This document shows, piece after piece, positions 45,454 to 62,982 of a stretch of DNA of 64,000 bases (positions within the stretch are counted from its first letter, which is position 1; each line of letters opens with the position of its first letter). Source of the DNA: Sulfuricurvum sp. (lineage in GTDB: Bacteria > Campylobacterota > Campylobacteria > Campylobacterales > Sulfurimonadaceae); NCBI RefSeq assembly GCF_028713855.1, contig NZ_JAQTNN010000002.1, positions 62,001-126,000 of the forward strand. The letters run 5' to 3'. The translations under genes and the position numbers were made by a program. Below the pieces are notes generated by a model, which was not told the origin of the DNA, did no database searches, and worked only from the letters and a program-made list of their open reading frames with translations.

Positions 45454-45990
45454 TTAATACAGTCCAAACCGTCCGTCGCCACGTTTGTACATGACACGCA
45501 TTTTCCCGTCATTGTCGTAAAATACTTCGAAAACTTTGGTACTCTCTTTGAGTTTTTCTACTATTTCCGCAACCTCTTGGGGTTTATACAGCACCAACTC
45601 GGTCGGAACGATTTCGTCTTCCATCGTTTCACCGACCGCATGTAAATCAACAGACACAGCGGCAGCATTTTTAGCTTCATTAAGCCCTTCGTTTTTATGA
45701 TCGGAAATCCGGTCATGCAAACGGCGGAGCGCTTTTTGGGCACGATCGATCGCAATGTCGATTGCTGCGTAGAGATCATCGTCACGCTGGGTAATGACGA
45801 TGGTGTTTTTTCCGGCTACGTTGATTGTAAATTCGATCGTAACCCCTTTTTTCCGTTCATTGGCCGAGGCAACGGCATTGACACTGATAAGATCGAGATG
45901 AAATTTGCTGAGAGTATCGATAGAGTGCATCAGATGATCTTTGATTGCATCGCTGAGCTCGATGTGGCGTCCGACGAGAGAGATATTCAT
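45454..45990 (-). CDS. hpf: Ribosome hibernation promoting factor, long form
   Basis: Long HPF dimerises 70S ribosomes in resting cells. ATG 45990 is chosen because AAGGTGG lies upstream and the sequence from there, MNISLVGRHIELSDAIKDHL, is the family N-terminus; the frame's extra 20 codons run into the promoter. The 178-residue protein has the S30AE domain (1-100) and the C-terminal dimerisation domain (about 120-175, VPTELVLYKPQEVAEIV). A minus-strand TATAAT is at 46035-46030. Confidence 0.93.
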   Translation of the reverse strand: MNISLVGRHIELSDAIKDHLMHSIDTLSKFHLDLISVNAVASANERKKGVTIEFTINVAGKNTIVITQRDDDLYAAIDIAIDRAQKALRRLHDRISDHKNEGLNEAKNAAAVSVDLHAVGETMEDEIVPTELVLYKPQEVAEIVEKLKESTKVFEVFYDNDGKMRVMYKRGDGRFGLY

Positions 45991-46029
45991 AATTTGACCC
46001 ACCTTGTAATGATATGTGAAGGAAGTTTG

Positions 46030-46284
46030 ATTATAACACACAAAAAACAAACGTCAAGACTTTTAAGTCAAAAGCAAACCGATAAGTGCAAAATAATTAT
46101 TAACGTATTTTAATGATTCTTTAATCTACATAGCACTACAATCGAAATATGGCGTCTCCTCTATATATGTTTTAGAAAAGAGGGACAATGGTCGATAGTA
46201 TCGGATATTAAGAAGTATTGGGCATATAGTTAGTTTCTACCGAGCCCTGAATGTGTGTGTACTAAAAATCCCGAGGAGGATTAC
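46030..46284. promoter_or_regulatory. Divergent promoter region and structured leader of the tip operon
   Basis: The minus-strand TATAAT (46035-46030) serves hpf. On the plus strand TACAAT (46137-46142) is a likely -10, giving a leader of about 135 bases before ATG 46285. The leader has three possible small hairpins: CCTCT/AGAGG (46158-46183), CGAT/ATCG (46193-46203), and GGGC/GCCC around 46220-46247. GAGGAGGA (46273-46280) is the ribosome site. A regulatory role for the leader is only a suggestion. Confidence 0.45.
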
Positions 46285-49200
46285 ATGAGAAATTTTAAAC
46301 TTATTGCACGACTAACCGCCGTTTTTACTGCGGCGATGATAGTTGCTGTCTCAGGATGGGGTGCAGCTTCTTATGTAAGCGGTGCTACTGCGGCTCAACT
46401 GGCAGCTCAAATTCAAGGGCCGGGTATCACAATTACCAATCCCCAACTTAAGAGAGGAAAAGCTTCTCAGGCGGGGACATTTTCGAACGGGATTGCGGGG
46501 GCAAAGTTAGAAGTTGATGAGGGGATTATTTTAACGGGTATGAGTGTTAATGAATCTTTTACCACAAATAGTTCATGGCGTACATCACTTGATAATTCCG
46601 GCAGTTCAACAGATGCAGATCTATTGGCGATTGATGCAAAGGCAAGATACGATACGGTGGTGTTTGAATTCGATGTTACCCTGGGAGCAAATACACGGCT
46701 TCTGATGGTCGATTATCAGTTTGCATCGGAAGAGTATAACGAATATGTCGGATCGCAATTTAATGATGCATTTGGCTTTTTTGTTTCAGGGGGAGATTTA
46801 ACCAAAACGTATAACATCGCACGAGTTGTGGATGATTCGACGATTGTAACAACGGCTAATATTGAAAACTACGTTCCGGTAACGGTTAATAATGTTAATA
46901 ATGGAAGCGTCGGCATTTATGATGATACTACACCTCAAATTTTAACCAATTCTCAATATTTTATTAACAACTGTGTAAAGGGGACTGGTGTTCCCAATTG
47001 TACTCAATCACAAGCTCCGGTAGATGTCGAATATGACGGGTTGACGCATAGACTGCACGCGACATTGGATAATCTCACTCCGGGGGTTACCTATCATTTT
47101 AAAATGGCATTGGCGGACACCGGTGATAGTCAATGGGACACAGGGGTGTTTGTCAATAAAATCATGGGGATTCGCGGACCGCAGCTTTGTTATGACTATG
47201 CTTACAAACAAAACAACCAGTTTATAACCAATAAAACATATATTGGGCAAACGCCACAAATAGATAGTACCGTGTTCCCAAATACCGTTGTACCGGTTTC
47301 AATCTACATTAAAAATGTGGAAACGTCTGAATTGACAGCCCAAAATTTAAAAATGAGCATTAATGATATCAATATAAGCCAAGCGGTTTATTCACCAAAC
47401 AGTGTCAGTCTGATCGCACCGAATCAAATGACGGCAACATCGATTCCGGATAGCACAAATGGTATGAGTGTAGCTGACAACTATATACATGATATTCCGA
47501 TCGGGCAATTAAAATCCAATGAATATTTTTACCTTGGATACAGTTTGATGCCATCTGTTAATACGTTAAAAATGCCGCTTAATGCTTCTTTGAGTTTTGA
47601 TTTGAGTGTTCAGGGGGTAACGATCCCGTACAGTTATACTTTGGGAAGCAACAAAGTTCCAATGTGTGCTTCTACGGTTTCATATCAGCCCACACCGGGT
47701 ATCTTTAATATGGTAGATAAACAGCTGAATACGGGGACGTTGACCGCAGGATCGACAAATGTCAAATACAATCTTCCGACACAAATAGCGAATCGTCCGA
47801 CGGAGATGAAGCTGGTCTCATTTGATCCAATCAGTACTAATATTGTAAAAGCGACCAATACGGTTGTCGCGGTCGAGATGATTGATGCCGGCGGATATTT
47901 TGAGACCAATGCGTCCTGCTCGGATCCAAGGAGTGCCATTACCCCAAGAGCATGGGTAAAAATTGGAAATTTCGATGCAAATACGACCAATGTAAATTTT
48001 GATAAATCACTTTTGGGAACAGGGATGAATATCGGTGTGACCGAAAGTCAATTCTATAATCAAGTGCGTGAAAATGTTGCATACCGAATGAGCTATAACT
48101 TGGATGATAACAACGGCTCGGTTCAGGTAGAGACGTTGGCAAATGGAAAATCAAAGTTGAAATATTTTACAACGTATGCCGGTGAGAAGTGTATGGTAGA
48201 CATTGATGGAAATCCAAACAGCAATGACACCGTACCTCAGTGGTGCGGAAGTAATGGCGGCGGTCAAGGTACCGGGATGTCACCTGCTGAATTACAAGTC
48301 TGTATGGAGTGTATTTACGGAATGAAAACGCGGGTAGTATGCTCACGGGATAACTTTGCCGTTCGTCCCGAGGCGTTCAATGTACAGATGAAAGATCCAA
48401 CAGGATTGGGTGCTATTCCCTCGGACGCAAATATTTCGGCTGGGTATATGTATAGTTTTGATGCCAATGCTACCAATCATATTGATTCGACTCCGACACC
48501 GGGATATGTTGCTTCCTTCAGCAGTACACAAAGTTCAGCTGATAGAAATGTAACCTTGGCTTGGGAACCTAACGGACATGTGGTGACCGGTTGTAATGAT
48601 ATTACCAGCCCGTTTCTTGAATTTTATTTTGTTGACGGAAAAATTACCAATCAAACGCGCAATCACAATAATGTCGGAAGATATGTCTTACAAGCAAGGG
48701 ATAAAAAATGGGCCGCAGTGGATCAGGCACCGATGAATCATCATGTCGGAAACACGAATTGGATTTCCGGAAACGATTGTGCCGTAGGGGGTGAAGTTCC
48801 TCTTTATGATGCTGTCAATAATACGTACAATCTGAATATGGTTGGATGTGAAATTTCTTCGAACCATTTGAATCATAATACCGGAGTGAAGTACAATGAT
48901 TCGAATTTAACATTTCATCCTTATCAATTTGGAATGAGCGGAAGTTTTAGAATAGGGGAGGGAAATAGTAGTTCCGTTCCACCTAATATTGCCCTCAATA
49001 CCGGAGATATAAAATTTGTTTATATGGCAGATATTAATAACTCTAATGAAATGAATATGTCGGTACGAGGCGATTATCAAATTACTGCACAAGGTGCAAC
49101 CAATGGTGCCTTAAGTAATTTCGTACGCAACTGTTATGCAAAAGATATGAATATTACCCTGAACCGTGTCCACAGCATAAACCAAAATCTGTCAAATTAT

Positions 49201-50151
49201 CAAGCGCGCTTTAGCGATAAAAATGTCTCGACCGGGGTTGTTTTACAAGAGCACAATACAACGGTCGTTCCGTTTGGGAATAAATGGTTACGCACTGCCG
49301 ATGACAGTAATTTTACCAAAGACGGTGCCGGAACTCTAAAAACTGAGGTTCGGCTTAATTATGATCGTAATAGTTTTGTCGTAGTCAACCCTATTACTGT
49401 CACCTTTGGCGATTTTGGTGTCAGCTGCGCAAATCCAGCGGAGTGTCAGCATCGAGCCGATGGTCTCACTTCGCATGAGCCGACAGGTAATACGGTGACA
49501 AATTTTAGTGTAGCCCACTATTATGGTCGTGCACAAGGGCAGTATACACGTATCCGTTCTCCGAGGGCTCAGGTAAATGCCTTCGGGAATGTTCGTGTAA
49601 ATTTTGAAGTATTCTGTGGGGATGACGGCGTAAGTAATTGCAATCTCTTAGGTATTGTCAATGCAAATCCTCTTTTGCTCCCAAGCGGAAGAGTCGCATT
49701 ACGGGGAGATGACAGAGATTGGTATCTAAATCTCGATCATAATGACGTAGATCCGACCAATGCCGCTAATCATGCTGATCACTATTTGAATCCTTACGGG
49801 AGAGCAGACCTTGATCTAACGGCGGTTGGGTCAACTAAGGTGACGAATGCCGTAACGATTTCACGGGCATCACAAAATGGGATTAATGGTATTGTCGTAA
49901 CACAAACAAAAACAGGTTTCGAACGCTACGGCGTCAACTATAGCGGTCAGAATGATTATCCCTATACCGTACTGATCCAAAATACTCCGTCTCCATGGCT
50001 GGTGTATAATCGTCCAGGAGATTTAAATCCAAATAGCAATGAGTATATGTTAGAATTTAACAAAGAGAGCGGATGGATTGGTGAAAGTAAATCGAATCAA
50101 GCAACCGATAACGATGCCGCCATTAACTCCAGCAGGAGGATCATGTGGTAA
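46285..50151 (+). CDS. Secreted protein with choice-of-anchor L domain and MshQ/DUF6701-like C-terminal region
   Basis: ATG 46285 has GAGGAGGA upstream; the open frame starts 10 codons earlier without support. The 1288-residue protein has a signal peptide (about residues 1-35). A choice-of-anchor L domain follows (about 35-300), recognised from GIILTGMSV, DTVVFEFDVTLGAN, MVDYQFASEEYNEYVGSQFND, FGFFVSGG and GVTYHFKMALADTGDSQWD (all as separate pieces). The middle (300-680) is Asn/Thr-rich. From about 690, CSRDNFAVRPEAFNV begins a Cys-containing region that resembles the C-terminal part of MshQ (DUF6701). The gene overlaps a pseudopilin gene by 7 bases. The best guess is a pilus-tip adhesin or a protein displayed by the pseudopilus. 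The domain names are from memory. Confidence 0.75.
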   Translation: MRNFKLIARLTAVFTAAMIVAVSGWGAASYVSGATAAQLAAQIQGPGITITNPQLKRGKASQAGTFSNGIAGAKLEVDEGIILTGMSVNESFTTNSSWRTSLDNSGSSTDADLLAIDAKARYDTVVFEFDVTLGANTRLLMVDYQFASEEYNEYVGSQFNDAFGFFVSGGDLTKTYNIARVVDDSTIVTTANIENYVPVTVNNVNNGSVGIYDDTTPQILTNSQYFINNCVKGTGVPNCTQSQAPVDVEYDGLTHRLHATLDNLTPGVTYHFKMALADTGDSQWDTGVFVNKIMGIRGPQLCYDYAYKQNNQFITNKTYIGQTPQIDSTVFPNTVVPVSIYIKNVETSELTAQNLKMSINDINISQAVYSPNSVSLIAPNQMTATSIPDSTNGMSVADNYIHDIPIGQLKSNEYFYLGYSLMPSVNTLKMPLNASLSFDLSVQGVTIPYSYTLGSNKVPMCASTVSYQPTPGIFNMVDKQLNTGTLTAGSTNVKYNLPTQIANRPTEMKLVSFDPISTNIVKATNTVVAVEMIDAGGYFETNASCSDPRSAITPRAWVKIGNFDANTTNVNFDKSLLGTGMNIGVTESQFYNQVRENVAYRMSYNLDDNNGSVQVETLANGKSKLKYFTTYAGEKCMVDIDGNPNSNDTVPQWCGSNGGGQGTGMSPAELQVCMECIYGMKTRVVCSRDNFAVRPEAFNVQMKDPTGLGAIPSDANISAGYMYSFDANATNHIDSTPTPGYVASFSSTQSSADRNVTLAWEPNGHVVTGCNDITSPFLEFYFVDGKITNQTRNHNNVGRYVLQARDKKWAAVDQAPMNHHVGNTNWISGNDCAVGGEVPLYDAVNNTYNLNMVGCEISSNHLNHNTGVKYNDSNLTFHPYQFGMSGSFRIGEGNSSSVPPNIALNTGDIKFVYMADINNSNEMNMSVRGDYQITAQGATNGALSNFVRNCYAKDMNITLNRVHSINQNLSNYQARFSDKNVSTGVVLQEHNTTVVPFGNKWLRTADDSNFTKDGAGTLKTEVRLNYDRNSFVVVNPITVTFGDFGVSCANPAECQHRADGLTSHEPTGNTVTNFSVAHYYGRAQGQYTRIRSPRAQVNAFGNVRVNFEVFCGDDGVSNCNLLGIVNANPLLLPSGRVALRGDDRDWYLNLDHNDVDPTNAANHADHYLNPYGRADLDLTAVGSTKVTNAVTISRASQNGINGIVVTQTKTGFERYGVNYSGQNDYPYTVLIQNTPSPWLVYNRPGDLNPNSNEYMLEFNKESGWIGESKSNQATDNDAAINSSRRIMW

Positions 50152-50912
50152 GACGCAGCGCTTTTACTTTGATTGAAGTCATATTAGCATTGGTGATTAT
50201 AGGTATTACGGTGTTGACCGTACCGATGATTATCCAAGTTAATACGGCCAGTACACAAGGAAGTTTGAACCAGGAAGGGATATTTGCGGCATCAGCCAAG
50301 CTTTTGCAAACATTGAGTTTCCCATGGGATGAAAATGCAAACAATGCAGAGTTGGCGGCAGAGGGGGCTGATGTATTGGCAGGTGTGGTTAAGGTTACAG
50401 CGAATGCGAATACCTCTCCCACGTTTGATGTAACCAATGCTAACAATAGACCCGGATTGATCAGTCGCCAGACACGCAGAGATGGATTTGGAATAGCAGT
50501 TGATGTTTCAAATATTGGAAATGATAACCCCAGTCTATTGGTGCGGGGGATTGACGATTTTAACGGACAGGCATCCAATGTCGCAAATGACAAAGGACTT
50601 GCCGGAGCAGTGGTTGTTGATGCAGCGGCGGGATATAAGGCAAACTATACTATGACGACAGCGGTGAACTATATTGATGATCAAATAAACTCCGCAGGCG
50701 GAACGATCAATTATAATACTCCGAACCCGCTTGTTGCGAACACTTTTGTCCTTTCCAATACACCGGTTGCGGGGCCGACCAATTTACGGATGGTCAGTAT
50801 TTCAATATTCGGTCGAGATGACGATAATGACGGTAATCCGGATCTGATTAGTGTACTAAATGCCTACGCTGCCAATATCGGTGAAACCAAACCCTACAAA
50901 AGAAGATACTGA
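50145..50912 (+). CDS. Minor pseudopilin (PilV/GspI-like)
   Basis: The GTG start overlaps the upstream gene by 7 bases, with CAGGAGGA (50132-50139) as ribosome site. The 255-residue protein has a class III-type prepilin signal: short basic leader MVRRSA, then FTLIEVILALVIIGITVLTV with Glu5. The residue before the cleavage site is Ala, not Gly. The rest is a beta-rich, Asn-rich globular domain ending with a DDDNDGNPD acidic loop, which may bind calcium. It is part of a set of three pseudopilins. Confidence 0.82.
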   Translation: MVRRSAFTLIEVILALVIIGITVLTVPMIIQVNTASTQGSLNQEGIFAASAKLLQTLSFPWDENANNAELAAEGADVLAGVVKVTANANTSPTFDVTNANNRPGLISRQTRRDGFGIAVDVSNIGNDNPSLLVRGIDDFNGQASNVANDKGLAGAVVVDAAAGYKANYTMTTAVNYIDDQINSAGGTINYNTPNPLVANTFVLSNTPVAGPTNLRMVSISIFGRDDDNDGNPDLISVLNAYAANIGETKPYKRRY

Positions 50913-51817
50913 TGAAAAAAGTAAAACATGCTTTTACGATGATTGAGCTTTTGATCGTTATCGTGATAATGGGGATACTGGCAAAATTTGGAACCGAACT
51001 ACTGCTAAGAACGTATGAAGATTTTGTAGTCGGAACCATGAACAACCGTCTATTATCCCAAAGCGAAACAGCGGTAACTCAGATTGCCAACCGTTTACAA
51101 TATCGGATTCGTGAATCGATGGTGGTTCGTCAAAATGGCGGGGCACCGACAGCACTTTCAACGACCAATGATGTAGCGGGTAATGTTGTTTTTGAGTGGA
51201 TCGGGTATGATGTTGACGGGATGCGCGGAGATGGAGCAGGTACCGCATCGACGTGGAGCGGTTTTATCGATGTGGATAACGGGCTTGGATCGACCAATAA
51301 TCTAGTCTCTCCGGGAAGTGACTGGAATCGTATCGCAGGTGTTATTACTTCCCTTGCTCCATCAGGAGTAGCATCACCTGCCCTTTTCTTTATAGGGGAT
51401 GAGACAATCAATGTTTTAACCGGTTTTGGATGGCAAGGGGTTTTGGGAAATCAAAACGTTAATATGCATCGGATAAACATAGGAGGAGGAATTGATCAAT
51501 TTTCCCCTGTTGTCGGTACCGGTACTTTCGGAGGGGTTAATATTTATGAGTATTATCGGTTGGCATGGACTGCGTATGCTTTGGAGCTCTTTACAGATGT
51601 GGATGGCCGTCAAAAACTTCAATTATGGTACGATTATCAGCCATGGGATGGAGAAACATATCAGCAAGGCACCTCTCAAATATTAATGGAAGATGTTAGT
51701 TCAATAGCGTTTGCAAGTATCGGAGATACGTTAAAAGTGCAAGTGTGTGTAAGCGATAATAATCTCTCCGGAGGAACAGGAGCGTTTTCAGTATGCAAAG
51801 AAAAAACTATTTATTAA
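50912..51817 (+). CDS. Minor pseudopilin (PilW/GspJ-like)
   Basis: The 301-residue protein starts with ATG overlapping the previous stop by one base. The prepilin signal is MKKVKHA then FTMIELLIVIVIMGILAKFG, with Glu5 and Ala at -1. The remaining 270 residues form a large beta-rich domain; size suggests PilW or GspJ class. The end overlaps the next gene by 25 bases, which implies coupled translation. Confidence 0.8.
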   Translation: MKKVKHAFTMIELLIVIVIMGILAKFGTELLLRTYEDFVVGTMNNRLLSQSETAVTQIANRLQYRIRESMVVRQNGGAPTALSTTNDVAGNVVFEWIGYDVDGMRGDGAGTASTWSGFIDVDNGLGSTNNLVSPGSDWNRIAGVITSLAPSGVASPALFFIGDETINVLTGFGWQGVLGNQNVNMHRINIGGGIDQFSPVVGTGTFGGVNIYEYYRLAWTAYALELFTDVDGRQKLQLWYDYQPWDGETYQQGTSQILMEDVSSIAFASIGDTLKVQVCVSDNNLSGGTGAFSVCKEKTIY

Positions 51818-52293
51818 ACAAACGTCCGGGATTTGCCATGATTATGGCAATATTTTTGATGGTTTTAATCGGCGGGATGATGGCGGCATCGATATCAATG
51901 GCAGGAATTTCGACCAATCGTACGCAAGATGATTATCTGCATGAACAAGCACAGCTGTTGGCTCGCAGTGCAACAGAATATGCAATCTTGGCTGTCTCAG
52001 GGCATGAAGTAAATACGACGAACGGGTGTATCAATAGGATTAACATGGTCTATCCTACTGCAGCCAACCCGATGTTTAACATTGGAATTGATTTGCAATA
52101 CATAATGTTTCATGATGTGGGGGGAGTTCTAACCGTATATGGAGGGTGTACTCCTATTGCCGGCACCGGGGGAATTGCTCAAACACCTGAGTCTAATGGA
52201 ACTGTGCTGATGGATGTTACAGTTACAAGCAGTAATCAATTAAATCTTACCGAACCAATCCGCTATGAACGAAGAACATTACAAAAACTATAA
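51793..52293 (+). CDS. Minor pseudopilin without Glu5 (PilX/GspK-like)
   Basis: The 166-residue protein has a basic leader ending KRPG and then FAMIMAIFLMVLIGGMMAAS, a prepilin helix in which residue 5 is Met rather than Glu. Lack of Glu5 is a known mark of GspK and PilX, which sit at the filament tip. QAQLLARSATEYAILAVSGHE follows as the usual helix extension. Two Cys pairs are plausible in the globular part (GCINR and GGCTP). It ends the operon, followed by a terminator. Confidence 0.78.
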   Translation: MQRKNYLLNKRPGFAMIMAIFLMVLIGGMMAASISMAGISTNRTQDDYLHEQAQLLARSATEYAILAVSGHEVNTTNGCINRINMVYPTAANPMFNIGIDLQYIMFHDVGGVLTVYGGCTPIAGTGGIAQTPESNGTVLMDVTVTSSNQLNLTEPIRYERRTLQKL

Positions 52294-52312: not shown

Positions 52313-52345
52313 TTACCCCAATAAGGGGTAATGGAAGCGTTTTTT
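52313..52345 (+). terminator. Rho-independent terminator of the pseudopilin operon
   Basis: Stem TTACCCC (52313-52319) / GGGGTAA (52325-52331) with loop AATAA, and a TTTTTT run at 52340-52345. It lies 20 bases after the last pseudopilin stop and touches the 3' end of the convergent response-regulator gene. Confidence 0.75.
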
Positions 52346-52721
52346 AAAGGGCTAGTTGTGCGATTTTAGCGAGGACATCTTTTTCACGTACTGGCTTCAT
52401 CAAGAATCCATTTGCTCCGCACTCTAACGCTTCCCCTTTTTTGGTCTCATCGGTGGTGAGGACGATGACAGGAAGCTGACGGAGAGATTCATCCGCACGG
52501 ATTACTTTTAGCATTTCAATACCACCCATCACAGGCATAATGATATCGAGCAAGATAATATCGATGTCATTTTGCGATTTGAGTACACCGATTGCATCCG
52601 CACCGTTTTTGGCTTCAACAACCTGTGAAACGTTCGGGGTTTTCATTAACATGGTTTTGAGTAACTTGAGATTGATCATATCATCATCAACCGCAAGCAC
52701 TTTTAATTTTTTCTCGCCCAT
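52344..52721 (-). CDS. CheY-like single-domain response regulator
   Basis: The 125-residue protein is a stand-alone receiver. It has the acidic pair in AVDDDMINLKLL, the phospho-accepting Asp in IILLDIIMPVMGG, the Thr in VIVLTTDETKKGEA, and the Lys in GFLMKPVREKDVL. No output domain is present. It is the last gene of the four-gene signalling operon and may be the target or phosphate sink of the kinase upstream. It is not in a chemotaxis gene cluster, so a role as CheY for the motor is unproven. Confidence 0.9.
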   Translation of the reverse strand: MGEKKLKVLAVDDDMINLKLLKTMLMKTPNVSQVVEAKNGADAIGVLKSQNDIDIILLDIIMPVMGGIEMLKVIRADESLRQLPVIVLTTDETKKGEALECGANGFLMKPVREKDVLAKIAQLAL

Positions 52722-52738
52722 TTAGAATTTCCCCAATC

Positions 52739-55700
52739 TTAAATAAATTTTTCAAAAACAAGACGGAGTAAGTCTTTGTTAACGATGTTTTTGATGATTT
52801 CATGCACATACATCGTATCTTCAACATCTTCCGTAGCACTTGGATCGATGAGCATGACAAGCGATGTTTCACTATCATTGGTACGGATTATATCATACAG
52901 ATCCTTGAGATTTAGTTCGCGAAGTGTTTTGTCAAATAATGCAAGCTTGTAACGGTGATCTTTTAGTTCAGACATCAACTGATCTGACGTATTGACACTT
53001 TTATAGGTGTATCCCAAATCATCCAAAATACGTGAGAAGAGCTTCATTTCCAATGTATTTTGTTTGGCAATCAAAATATCGGCATCAAAGGCTGAACGAC
53101 GAACTTCAGGGAGGCTCTCATCTGCAACCGGAGCAATCTCATTTTCGATTACATCATTTAGGGTCTCTTCTTCTGGAAGTATTGTATCTTCAACAGCCGG
53201 TTCGGAAATTTCCTCACTCACTACCGGAGTTGCTTCGAAAGAATCTTTAAAGATATTCTCACTTTCAATAATCTCAGCAACTTCTTCTACTTGAGGTACT
53301 GCGATATCTACTAAAGGTTCATTTTTCGTGTCAGTATCCTCATCTATGGATTCTGCATCAGAAGATTGTGTAATATCATGGATTGATTTAGGTACGGCTT
53401 TAATATCGATAATTTTATGCGACAAGAAATTATTGAGTAATCCAATAATCTCGGCACGTACCAACGGTTTGGTGGTATATTCATCCATACCGGCGCTCAA
53501 GAAGCGTTCACGGTCTCCTTTAAGTGCATTGGCTGTCAATGCAATGATTGGAATATGGTGTTGTGAATAATCTTCTTCAAAGTCTAAAATTTCTTGTGTT
53601 GCTTCAATCCCATCCAATACCGGCATTTGGATATCCATGAAAATAATATCAAAAGTACCGTTTTTACGTTTTTCGAATGCTTCGAGACCATTGGAAGCGA
53701 TGGTGATCTCAAGGCCTAAATCTTCAAGGGTACGTCGGATTAGTTTTTGGTTAATGACATTGTCTTCGGCAACCAATGCGCTCGCTGCAAATTTGGAGTT
53801 TTTCTCATCGAATTTTTTACGGCGGGTTGCTTTTTGTTTGCGATTACTGAATGCTTCGGCATCATAAGCATCCAACGTCGTACGAATTTTAGAACTATTC
53901 AGCGGCTCATAAAGAACTTTGAAAATATCGATTCCCATAGAATCGATTTTTTTCATATAGTATGATTTGGTGATAAGAACCAACTGCTCTTGAGTCGAAG
54001 CATAGGCCATAATGTCACTGTCATTCGTATAATCATTATCAATGAATAACAGGTCATAATTGACCTGACGTTCTAACATTTTGAGTTCATCAAGTTCATG
54101 GAAGGTCGTATAACTGACACCGAAATAATCCAGATACTCTTTCAGATAGGTGTTTTGGAGTTTTTTCTTCGTATTGCTTTCCAATATGACGGCATTGATA
54201 TTGGAGAATGATCCTTTAAGCGGTTCATTGAGTGTTTCGATTTCTTCAAATTCAAGGGTAAAGAAGAACGTTGTTCCACTGCCCGGTTCACTTTCTAGAT
54301 CGAGTTTAGATCCCATTAGCTCTACGAAGCGGCTTGATATGGTAAGACCCAATCCGGTACCGCCGTATTTACGGGTAATAGAAGTATCGGCTTGAGAGAA
54401 TGCCTCAAAGATACGCGAACGTTGTTCACTGGTTACCCCGATACCGTTATCTTTTACCTCAAAACGAACTCGTGCACGATTTGGGGTATCACATTCGATA
54501 CGTCGGATATCGACACTGATCGCTCCACCGCTGTTGGTAAATTTGACGGCGTTACTGAGAAGATTGATGACAACTTCTTTGATTTTTGTCGGATCCCCTT
54601 TGAGCGGACGCTCAAGGCTTGGATCAACATAACAGGCAAGGTCAATATGTTTTTCAGACGCGCGAACACCATATACTTCGACAGCGCTTTCAAATTCATC
54701 CATCGGATTAAAGACGATCTCTTCAATTTCGAGTTTATTACTTTCAATTTTAGAGAGGTCAAGAATATTATTGATAATTTCAAGAAGATTCTCAGAGCTT
54801 TTTTCGATGATATCGATAAATTCACGTTGTTCATCGTGTAACTCGGTATCTTTGAGCAATTCGGTAAATCCGACGATACCATTGAGCGGGGTACGGATTT
54901 CATGAGACATATTTGCCAAGAACATCGATTTGGCTTCGGATGCTTCCATCGCATATTGTTTATCATTAAGGGTTTGTTCAATGATACGTTCTAGCAATGA
55001 ATATGCTTGTGCTGTACCTTCGGCCGTATCAAGATTGATGGTATGACTGAGAGCTTCTGCTTCGGTGTCGTGGGTATCTTCGGCAACCCGTTTGAGAACC
55101 GATTCGAGATTTTGGATATTTTTGGTAATCTCAGCTGAAAGGAAGTAACCCAATACGGCAACCAAAACGGCAATGATCCAAACGATAATCGCTATAATTA
55201 GAAGTTGAACGGCATGCTGTTGGATTGCCAAGGCACGTTTGTCCATTGCTTCGATCAGAATTTTTTGAGCACCGTCAATGGCACCGATTTTCTCTGAGAT
55301 CATTGCGAACCAAATACCCGACTGTGTTGAGTATTTTCCGGTAGCACTGAGCTGCAAAATTCCGCTTCGTTCAGTTGTAATATCTTGGAAAAGTTCAGTA
55401 TTGTCTTCACTGAATAGAGTAGCTTTGATTTTAGATTGGATATCTTTGTCTTTCATCCCCTCAATCGTAAGCATATCAGCTTTACTCATAAGGCTAATCC
55501 ATTTATCAAGCTCACCGGCGCTTAGTGGGGCAGCACGAGAGAGGAGATAGGTGATGTAATCGCGTTCGATACTACTGTATTCACTTGCGCGAACGAGAGA
55601 AAGATAGGTCGTGGAGAGGGCGTTAATCTCATCATCGAAATGAAGACCTGCCAGTTCGGCAAGTTCATTAATCAGTTGTTCTTGAGATTTTCCATAAACA

Positions 55701-56137
55701 TCTGAAAATACCTGATCGAAATCAGCTTTTTGCGTATCTACGAACGGACGTGATTGATTAAGCTGATTTTGAAGTTTCACAATAAGGGCATTTAATGCTG
55801 TTGCTTTGGCACTTTCAGCGTTATTGGCATGTCCAACAGTTGTTAAATATTTTTCATAGGCTGCAACTTTCTCATCAACAATAAGGCGTTGAGCATGGAG
55901 TGATTTTAGGGTTGCCGGAGAAGCATTTCCCATATACATCACCGTCATACCGCGTTCACGTGAGAGGTTGTTGATTAATTCGGTAAGCTGTTTATTCCCT
56001 TCAAGTCTCACTTGAAGCTGCCCAGCCCCTTTATAACTGACGTACGCATCGAAAACGTAGTAACTGGCAAGGGTAAAAAGTATCAGAATCGGTACGAGAC
56101 TGATGAGGCGGAGTCGATTTCTAAGTCCTAATTGCAT
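52739..56137 (-). CDS. Hybrid sensor histidine kinase with NIT-type sensor and three receiver-like domains
   Basis: The 1132-residue protein has a transmembrane helix (about 10-30), then a helical periplasmic region (about 40-305) of the nitrate/nitrite-sensing (NIT) type, with LINNLSRERGMTVMYMG near its start. A second helix (310-333) leads to the kinase: His412 in MSHEIRTPLNG, N box NLLSNAVKFT (525-534), and G boxes DNGIGV and GGTGLGLTI. A first receiver-like domain (about 645-760) is degenerate, with Glu in place of the conserved Lys (LYEPLNSSK). The second (about 785-915) is complete, with Asp835. A long acidic linker precedes a third (about 1020-1132) that has lost the N-terminal acidic pair. 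Ligand unknown. Confidence 0.88.
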   Translation of the reverse strand: MQLGLRNRLRLISLVPILILFTLASYYVFDAYVSYKGAGQLQVRLEGNKQLTELINNLSRERGMTVMYMGNASPATLKSLHAQRLIVDEKVAAYEKYLTTVGHANNAESAKATALNALIVKLQNQLNQSRPFVDTQKADFDQVFSDVYGKSQEQLINELAELAGLHFDDEINALSTTYLSLVRASEYSSIERDYITYLLSRAAPLSAGELDKWISLMSKADMLTIEGMKDKDIQSKIKATLFSEDNTELFQDITTERSGILQLSATGKYSTQSGIWFAMISEKIGAIDGAQKILIEAMDKRALAIQQHAVQLLIIAIIVWIIAVLVAVLGYFLSAEITKNIQNLESVLKRVAEDTHDTEAEALSHTINLDTAEGTAQAYSLLERIIEQTLNDKQYAMEASEAKSMFLANMSHEIRTPLNGIVGFTELLKDTELHDEQREFIDIIEKSSENLLEIINNILDLSKIESNKLEIEEIVFNPMDEFESAVEVYGVRASEKHIDLACYVDPSLERPLKGDPTKIKEVVINLLSNAVKFTNSGGAISVDIRRIECDTPNRARVRFEVKDNGIGVTSEQRSRIFEAFSQADTSITRKYGGTGLGLTISSRFVELMGSKLDLESEPGSGTTFFFTLEFEEIETLNEPLKGSFSNINAVILESNTKKKLQNTYLKEYLDYFGVSYTTFHELDELKMLERQVNYDLLFIDNDYTNDSDIMAYASTQEQLVLITKSYYMKKIDSMGIDIFKVLYEPLNSSKIRTTLDAYDAEAFSNRKQKATRRKKFDEKNSKFAASALVAEDNVINQKLIRRTLEDLGLEITIASNGLEAFEKRKNGTFDIIFMDIQMPVLDGIEATQEILDFEEDYSQHHIPIIALTANALKGDRERFLSAGMDEYTTKPLVRAEIIGLLNNFLSHKIIDIKAVPKSIHDITQSSDAESIDEDTDTKNEPLVDIAVPQVEEVAEIIESENIFKDSFEATPVVSEEISEPAVEDTILPEEETLNDVIENEIAPVADESLPEVRRSAFDADILIAKQNTLEMKLFSRILDDLGYTYKSVNTSDQLMSELKDHRYKLALFDKTLRELNLKDLYDIIRTNDSETSLVMLIDPSATEDVEDTMYVHEIIKNIVNKDLLRLVFEKFI

Positions 56138-61657: not shown

Positions 61658-62982
61658 CAGCTCAAGTGTCCGAACATACGGCGTTGAATCTTGCCGCACA
61701 TCCGTTTGGATGGTTGTTATTGATTATTTTTGTCGTGGGGTACTATTTTATTGCCGTAGAAGAAAAATATCATCTCGATAAAGCGAAACCGGCCCTTTTT
61801 ATCGGTACGTTTATGTATGTGTTGATCGGAGGATACTATTTTATAAACGGAGTAGATTTTACCCCTTTTGAAGCAGCTATCGACCACCTTATTTTAGAAA
61901 TCGCCGAAATTTTCTTCTTTTTATTTGTTGCGATGACATTTATCGAAGCCTTGATTGAACGAGGAGTGTTTGGTGCTTTACGATCGAAGTTAATTGCCAA
62001 AGGGTATAGTTATCGTGAACTTTTTTGGATTACAGGATTGCTTGCATTTTTTATCTCACCTATAGCGGATAATTTGACAACGGCACTCATCCTCTCTACC
62101 GTTTTACTGACGATTGAGGGGAAAGATAAAGCATTTTTAGTCCCCAGTGCAATCAATGTTGTTGTTGCCGCCAATGCCGGTGGGGCTTGGAGCCCGTTTG
62201 GAGACATTACGACGTTGATGGTATGGGCAGCGGGAAAAGGGGCATTTGTTGAATTTCTTTATCTTTTTCCGGCAGCATTTTTTGGATGGCTCATCACGGC
62301 ATTTTTACTAAGCAGATATGTTCCCGATCTTGATCCGAATAAAGAGGGTGATCCTGATGCAGCTTCAAAAATTGAAATCCTCAAGGGGGGAGAAGTTATT
62401 ATTGGAATTGGTGCTTTAACCATTGCATTAGCGGTTATTGGTAAGCAGGTAATGCATTTGCCTCCGATGTGGGGGATGCTTTTCGGACTCTCAATTTTGC
62501 AGCTTTATATGTATCATCTCCAAAAAAAGTACAAGCAGGATGTTAGTATCTTTCAGGCGATGAGCAGAATAGAAAACAATACACTACTTTTCTTTTTCGG
62601 TATTTTGGCTGCAGTCGGGGCTCTTCATTTCGTAGGTTTTTTAGCTTATGCCGCAAAGTTATATGAACTTTTCGATCCGACTGTCGTTAATATCGGCGTA
62701 GGCTTCCTTTCGGCAATCGTAGATAACGTTCCCGTAATGTCGGCTGTTCTTAAAGCGAATCCGGCAATTGATCAGGCTCAATGGATGCTGGTGACGATGA
62801 CCGCGGGTATAGGAGGATCATTGATCAGTTTCGGAAGTGCCGCAGGTGTCGGAGTGATGGGAAAAATGCCTGGGATTTATACGTTTGCATCCCATATAAA
62901 ACTGGGATGGACCGTATTAGTAGGCTATGTTGTATCGATTGCAATATGGTATTTTCAATTCATGATATTAGGTCTTTATTAA
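61654..62982 (+). CDS. nhaD: Sodium:proton antiporter NhaD
   Basis: This 442-residue membrane protein has about 12-13 helices. The pieces FISPIADNLTTALILSTVL and SAINVVVAANAGGAWSPFGD (the ion-binding region) and VGFLSAIVDNVPVMSAV are those of NhaD in the ion transporter superfamily. It probably exports Na+ in exchange for H+. ATGA overlap with nadB suggests co-transcription. It is a common gene in marine and freshwater Campylobacterota. Confidence 0.93.
   Translation: MTAQVSEHTALNLAAHPFGWLLLIIFVVGYYFIAVEEKYHLDKAKPALFIGTFMYVLIGGYYFINGVDFTPFEAAIDHLILEIAEIFFFLFVAMTFIEALIERGVFGALRSKLIAKGYSYRELFWITGLLAFFISPIADNLTTALILSTVLLTIEGKDKAFLVPSAINVVVAANAGGAWSPFGDITTLMVWAAGKGAFVEFLYLFPAAFFGWLITAFLLSRYVPDLDPNKEGDPDAASKIEILKGGEVIIGIGALTIALAVIGKQVMHLPPMWGMLFGLSILQLYMYHLQKKYKQDVSIFQAMSRIENNTLLFFFGILAAVGALHFVGFLAYAAKLYELFDPTVVNIGVGFLSAIVDNVPVMSAVLKANPAIDQAQWMLVTMTAGIGGSLISFGSAAGVGVMGKMPGIYTFASHIKLGWTVLVGYVVSIAIWYFQFMILGLY

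Follow-up and report, generated by a model that had tools for sequence, protein, structure and literature searches.

The four overlapping genes at 46285–52293, here termed Q, V, W and X, probably code for the tip of a type IV pilus resembling MSHA, in which Q is proposed to dock onto V, W and X and the filament to be built by a machine encoded on another contig (C10). Support comes from a paralogous Q-V-W-X set (mQ, mV, mW and mX) elsewhere in the genome, which makes up the 5′ portion of a full MSHA-like operon. We infer docking, the tip position, adhesion and a ligand for the head of Q. The window, i.e. the whole stretch of 64,000 nucleotides that was analysed, corresponds to positions 62001–126000 of contig C2 in a 2.81 Mb Sulfuricurvum genome. 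The features of the locus are as follows.

46285–50151, + strand: Q, 1288 aa, Sec-secreted putative tip adhesin (ORF with a ribosome-binding site; family found across Campylobacterales)
46396–47157, + strand: choice-of-anchor L domain that forms the variable head, Q residues 38–291 (NCBIfam NF038133, E = 4.4e-52)
47167–49554, + strand: conserved stalk of beta-rich Ig-like domains, Q residues 295–1090 (AlphaFold2 model, Ig-like matches)
49567–50148, + strand: Q tail, alpha type, residues ~1095–1288, presumed dock for the minor pilins (two tail types on trees; low model confidence)
50145–50912, + strand: V, PilV/GspI-like minor prepilin with Glu5 (N_methyl, TIGR02532; best homologue mV)
50912–51817, + strand: W, PilW/GspJ-like minor prepilin with Glu5 (N_methyl; best homologue mW)
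51793–52293, + strand: X, PilX/GspK-like minor prepilin without Glu5, K-type cap (NF037980 GspK, E = 4e-4; best homologue mX, 1e-20)
52313–52331, + strand: hairpin between X and a convergent response regulator gene, a possible but weak terminator (from the sequence)
45454–46050, − strand: hpf, coding for a ribosome hibernation factor and conserved next to the cassette (same neighbour in relatives)

Gene order and conservation of the cassette

Inspection of the sequence placed the start of Q at an ATG at 46285, preceded by GAGGAGG, and the start codon of V within the final codons of Q, with AGGAGG ahead of it. The four ORFs form an overlapping tandem, in agreement with the original prediction of a 1288-residue secreted protein followed by overlapping genes for PilV-, PilW- and PilX-like pseudopilins. 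The pseudopilin assignments also held: class III prepilin motifs with Glu5 were found in both V and W (Pfam N_methyl above the cut-off), and X resembled GspK at the E value listed above. V, W and X therefore represent the three prepilins of an I-J-K set, with the K-type member lacking Glu5. The Glu5 motif was missing from X in 111/111 relatives, and cap pilins without Glu5 have been described (PMC10191384). The predicted terminator stood only in that a hairpin is present downstream of X; its T-run lies 8 bases beyond the stem-loop and the terminator scan did not include it among its listed terminators. Convergent to the cassette, the window carries a response regulator and a NIT-domain hybrid histidine kinase (52344–56137). 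This pair, a candidate regulator, adjoins the cassette in the Sulfuricurvum-group loci examined.

The Q-V-W-X order was kept in 94 of the 102 loci of relatives with room downstream (60/65 named loci and 34/37 family loci, two sets that partly overlap), and several of the exceptions were fusions or frame breaks. As the order recurs to this extent, the four-gene linkage is not due to chance; a search of relatives for this order had been suggested as a check, and no case of unlinked genes was seen. A family search of 200 genomes detected Q in 148, W in 180 and, in 179, the I protein of the C10 type, where the other machine may account for a few of the matches. An alignment of stalk and tail matched 122/298 genomes of the phylum, all within one order and in several families. 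The closest relative by Q was G070 (77% identity). No paper describing a Q-V-W-X cassette was found in a literature search.

The cassette adjoined hpf and recG, often together with a lon-like gene, in most of the Campylobacterales families examined, and its orientation relative to hpf was inverted in the Sulfuricurvum group. The name hpf is our assumption, taken from knowledge of the sequence family rather than from a model match. The hpf/recG/lon neighbourhood appears to extend to Campylobacter-like genomes, an identity presumed from their size and number. Three Campylobacter-like genomes (L266, L267 and L268; 1.8–2.0 Mb) have all four of Q, V, W and X next to hpf and a gene the size of lon. 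Several loci, mostly titled Sulfurovum (L171, L175, L184, L204, L207 and L211), have an extra prepilin-like gene of ~220 aa 3′ of X, possibly for the H-type pilin, whose gene is not linked in the family of the window. Sulfurovum-like Q genes also occurred in a MAG titled Thermoproteota archaeon, on a contig (L193) that is probably mis-binned.

Pilus and secretion machines and the probable partner of the cassette

The earlier observation that the window holds no major pilin, ATPase or secretin agrees with genome-wide searches, in which the strong matches lay on other contigs. These searches located three secretin loci, with extension ATPases to match.

C1, 366–384 kb: complete T2SS, with G-H-I-J genes of its own plus a GspK-like gene
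C3, 218–235 kb (machine 226–235 kb): MSHA-like operon, mQ-V-W-X-H-I-J-K-L-M-N-E-G
C10, 14.6–24.1 kb: MSHA-like machine without a pilin, I-J-K-L-M-N-O-E-G
C3, 178.7–179.8 kb: two MshA/GspG-like major-type pilins
C5, 174.3–175.0 kb: H-type pilin, 226 aa
C4 and C10: PilT-type ATPases

The gene letters of the machines are those we presume from gene order, pairwise homology between both machines and what is known of the MSHA operon. A giant of 1842 aa that has DUF11 and LamG domains is encoded by mQ, and mQ lies with mV, mW and mX directly upstream of the complete MSHA-like machine; V, W and X of the window were reciprocal best matches of mV, mW and mX. For the two non-T2SS secretins the best model was MshL (TIGR02519), at 246 and 229 bits, which is 4 and 21 bits below the curated cut-off of 250, and the T2SS secretin passed as GspD, its best model. 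One E protein carried the MshE c-di-GMP motif above the cut-off. Homologues of E, G, L and M were present in both machines, and mshE, mshG, mshL and mshM are the mandatory genes of the MSH system (PMC6668835).

To identify the machine that serves the cassette, secretins were searched for in 25 genomes, of which five complete ones (G001, G016, G089, G095 and G099) held a single secretin. In all five, this secretin sat in the pilin-less machine and the cassette was present. The pilin-less MSHA-like machine is therefore the only evident partner for the cassette in these genomes, which speaks for a pilus tip and against classical type II secretion. Each of the five had one full-length extension ATPase, and PilT-type ATPases numbered two in four of them and one in the fifth. 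Besides V and W, they encoded two or three major-type pilins, which, where the match was clear, were orthologues of the C3 178.7–179.8 kb pair, and at least two genomes had an orthologue of the 226-aa C5 H-like pilin. None of the MshA/GspG-like pilins at C3 178–183 kb, which have orthologues in the single-secretin genomes, matched an MshA model. The mshA major pilin may be encoded apart from the machine. A C10-type machine without adjacent pilins was found in 7/7 genomes examined. The other MSHA-like machine, where present, had its own Q-V-W-X-H and often two further C3-cluster pilins alongside; a partition into two pili is consistent with this gene content, given that the other machine brings its own Q-V-W-X-H. 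In the genome of the window itself the cassette would pair with the C10 machine, although the T2SS and the second MSHA-like pilus encoded there are possible partners too.

A short-filament secretion system was considered, in which a V-W-X pseudopilus pushes Q through an MshL-type secretin and Q is released or surface-bound rather than fixed at a tip. I-J-K pilins and substrate recognition are shared with T2SSs (PMC10191384), and a K-type cap with no linked major pilin fits a pseudopilus. However, PilT-type ATPases and two or more MshA/GspG-like pilins occur in the single-secretin genomes, the machine is accompanied by MSHA-type M and N homologues, and one V-W-X set is common to tandem Q genes of differing lengths, all of which makes this arrangement unlikely. 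The original prediction had left open a secretion operon beside a pilus tip, and the classical T2SS version of it is disfavoured by complete genomes that carry the cassette and an MSHA-like secretin only. These cassettes without a T2SS secretin likewise argue against the C1 system (366–384 kb) as the recipient of Q as a substrate. Although that T2SS is complete, it has G, H, I, J and K genes of its own, and V, W and X are nearest to the MSHA-type set, which makes its use of the cassette very improbable.

The cassette could also provide an alternative tip for the other MSHA-like machine (C3 226–235 kb) rather than for that of C10. Its nearest same-genome homologues lie within the C3 operon, and in Myxococcus there are several tip clusters per machine (PMC7541494). 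We rate this as improbable, as the C3 operon has its own Q-V-W-X-H, many relatives possess the cassette but not a C3-type machine, and the C10-type machine had no adjacent pilins in the seven genomes examined. The pilus-tip reading with the C10 machine is supported by the MSHA-like paralogous operon and by the MSHA-like sole machine of the single-secretin genomes, and it would proceed in the following manner. V, W and X, as I-, J- and K-type minor pilins, would prime the filament and form its tip complex, with the Glu5-less X as cap. Sec would export Q, whose C-terminal tail would dock onto the V-W-X complex, and the Ig-like stalk would carry the anchor-L head outward to a surface or ligand. 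This agrees with the polarity proposed for PilY1, with the variable N-terminus outermost and the C-terminus proximal to the pilus (PMC7541494). Assembly would most likely be carried out by the pilin-less C10 machine (14.6–24.1 kb), with the two C3 178.7–179.8 kb pilins and the C5 174.3–175.0 kb H-type pilin as candidate subunits, and the PilT-type ATPases of C4 and C10 would drive retraction.

Domain architecture of Q and probable exchange of its modules

The N-terminal choice-of-anchor L domain is certain, as had been predicted (residues 38–291; 176.7 bits against an NF038133 cut-off of 27). A Pfam search of Q gave no convincing match, the anchor-L model existing solely in NCBIfam; a PDB sequence search with Q gave no match, and no relative of its C-terminus was found among plasmid records. 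The predicted MshQ-like C-terminus held with respect to position and role and to homology with the MSHA-operon giant, residues 681–1233 being homologous to the C-terminus of mQ (186 bits). Membership of DUF6701 (PF20419) did not hold: no match was found in the genome (E ≤ 10) or in 26 relatives (E ≤ 0.01), and control genomes were likewise without a match. No Pfam match to the PilC/PilY1 beta-propeller was found in Q or 26 relatives either. The system would work in the manner of MshQ and PilY1 tips, yet Q fails the family models of both.

AlphaFold2 modelling was informative for part of the large protein. The model including the stalk (mean pLDDT 81, pTM 0.73) was beta-rich and Ig-like, whereas confidence was very low for the head (pLDDT 43) and low for the tail. 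Fold matches of the stalk were generic Ig-like or MSCRAMM-like (best Z 10.3 over 134 residues), and they were therefore not used to assign a function; propeller-type folds did not appear among the matches listed, but this is no evidence that a propeller is lacking. A docking motif was initially seen in the conserved RRxMW end of Q and then rejected. This end is partly forced by the Shine-Dalgarno sequence and start codon of V, and the wider tail and tandem copies not abutting V were therefore used instead.

Q was modular across its relatives. Residues 1–294 were replaced in most of them by Ig-like, cadherin-like, DUF11, choice-of-anchor D or unassigned domains, and anchor-L heads required six changes on the stalk tree. 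The last ~190 residues occurred as an alpha type, found in the window, or a beta type with an HPC motif. Tail type changed once on the W tree (96 tips) versus five times on the stalk tree (98 tips), which points to a head and stalk that can be exchanged and to a dock that fits the minor pilins. As the tail is adjacent to V-W-X, this co-inheritance may reflect linkage alone. Over residues 296–1090, identity to the window Q was similar for beta-tailed (33–37%) and alpha-tailed (31–38%) Sulfuricurvum proteins; beyond residue 1090 it was 21% and 15% versus 24% and 32%, respectively. Two loci from different genera (L080 and L194) had a common head and stalk up to approximately residue 830, mostly at 60–90% identity per 40-column block and less thereafter, and their V and W proteins were 41% and 28% identical in partial alignments. 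The machine I protein was 85–86% identical between the alpha-tailed genome of the window and two beta-tailed Sulfuricurvum genomes (G014 and G122), so the tail switch does not track the machine.

In HPF and RecG trees all Sulfuricurvum loci were grouped together (support 1.0). The W proteins of the window, G070, G086 and G102 instead grouped with those of other genera (0.99) and lay outside the common Sulfuricurvum type. This discordance indicates that the locus holds alternative alleles. One genome (G078) had both cassette types, with beta at the hpf locus and alpha on a small contig (L222 and L223). Tandem pairs of giant Q genes of differing lengths were located upstream of one V-W-X set in L087, L089 and L162 (and in L149 and L161). 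Tandem Q genes had the same tail type, even though only a single copy abuts V, and they are possibly alternative tip adhesins.

Recombination would exchange heads and stalks between lineages, with the tail and V-W-X inherited jointly. For Campylobacterales as a whole, the case is evenly balanced in our judgement that an MSHA-like pilus with a lock-and-key tip cassette was ancestral, that the Q tail and V-W-X make up a docking unit inherited together, and that heads and stalks were swapped onto this unit across genera, retargeting the pilus without a change of machine.

Comparison with known systems

MSHA pili are attributed to a few Proteobacteria only and are considered too poorly characterised to tabulate (PMC10191384), whereas the hosts here are Campylobacterota. 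A full set of candidate MSHA-like components, the tip among them, can now be followed across an order whose members include sulfur oxidisers and host-associated bacteria. Chimeras that occur naturally, with a common stalk and differing tail and pilins, point to the interface between a non-pilin tip protein and minor pilins. In the Campylobacter-like members, the cassette suggests a candidate attachment organelle; flagellum-independent, pilus-based motility has been reported for C. ureolyticus, whose genome is annotated with MshL and MshM (PMC3758288).

The resemblance to the Vibrio cholerae MSHA pilus, of which MshQ is a putative adhesin (PMC7096442), comprises the I-J-K-L-M-N-E-G machine set, a secretin matching MshL best, a giant secreted protein adjoining the minor pilins and a LamG domain in the giant of the paralogous operon. 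Unlike MshQ, Q has no DUF6701 match and its head is a choice-of-anchor L domain, and unlike the V. cholerae genes the cassette is split from its machine and located at hpf/recG/lon. PilY1 of Myxococcus xanthus is likewise large and exported, is encoded alongside minor pilins of the I, J and K types (PMC7541494), has a variable N-terminus and a conserved C-terminal part, and its cassette may sit away from the machine. However, Q differs in lacking a PilC/PilY1 beta-propeller match, in its Ig-like stalk and in an MSHA-like instead of a T4aP machine. Finally, the three-pilin order and Glu5-less K-type subunit are those of the GspI-GspJ-GspK tip of T2SSs, whereas the cassette encodes a fixed partner, Q, and is present in genomes without a T2SS secretin.
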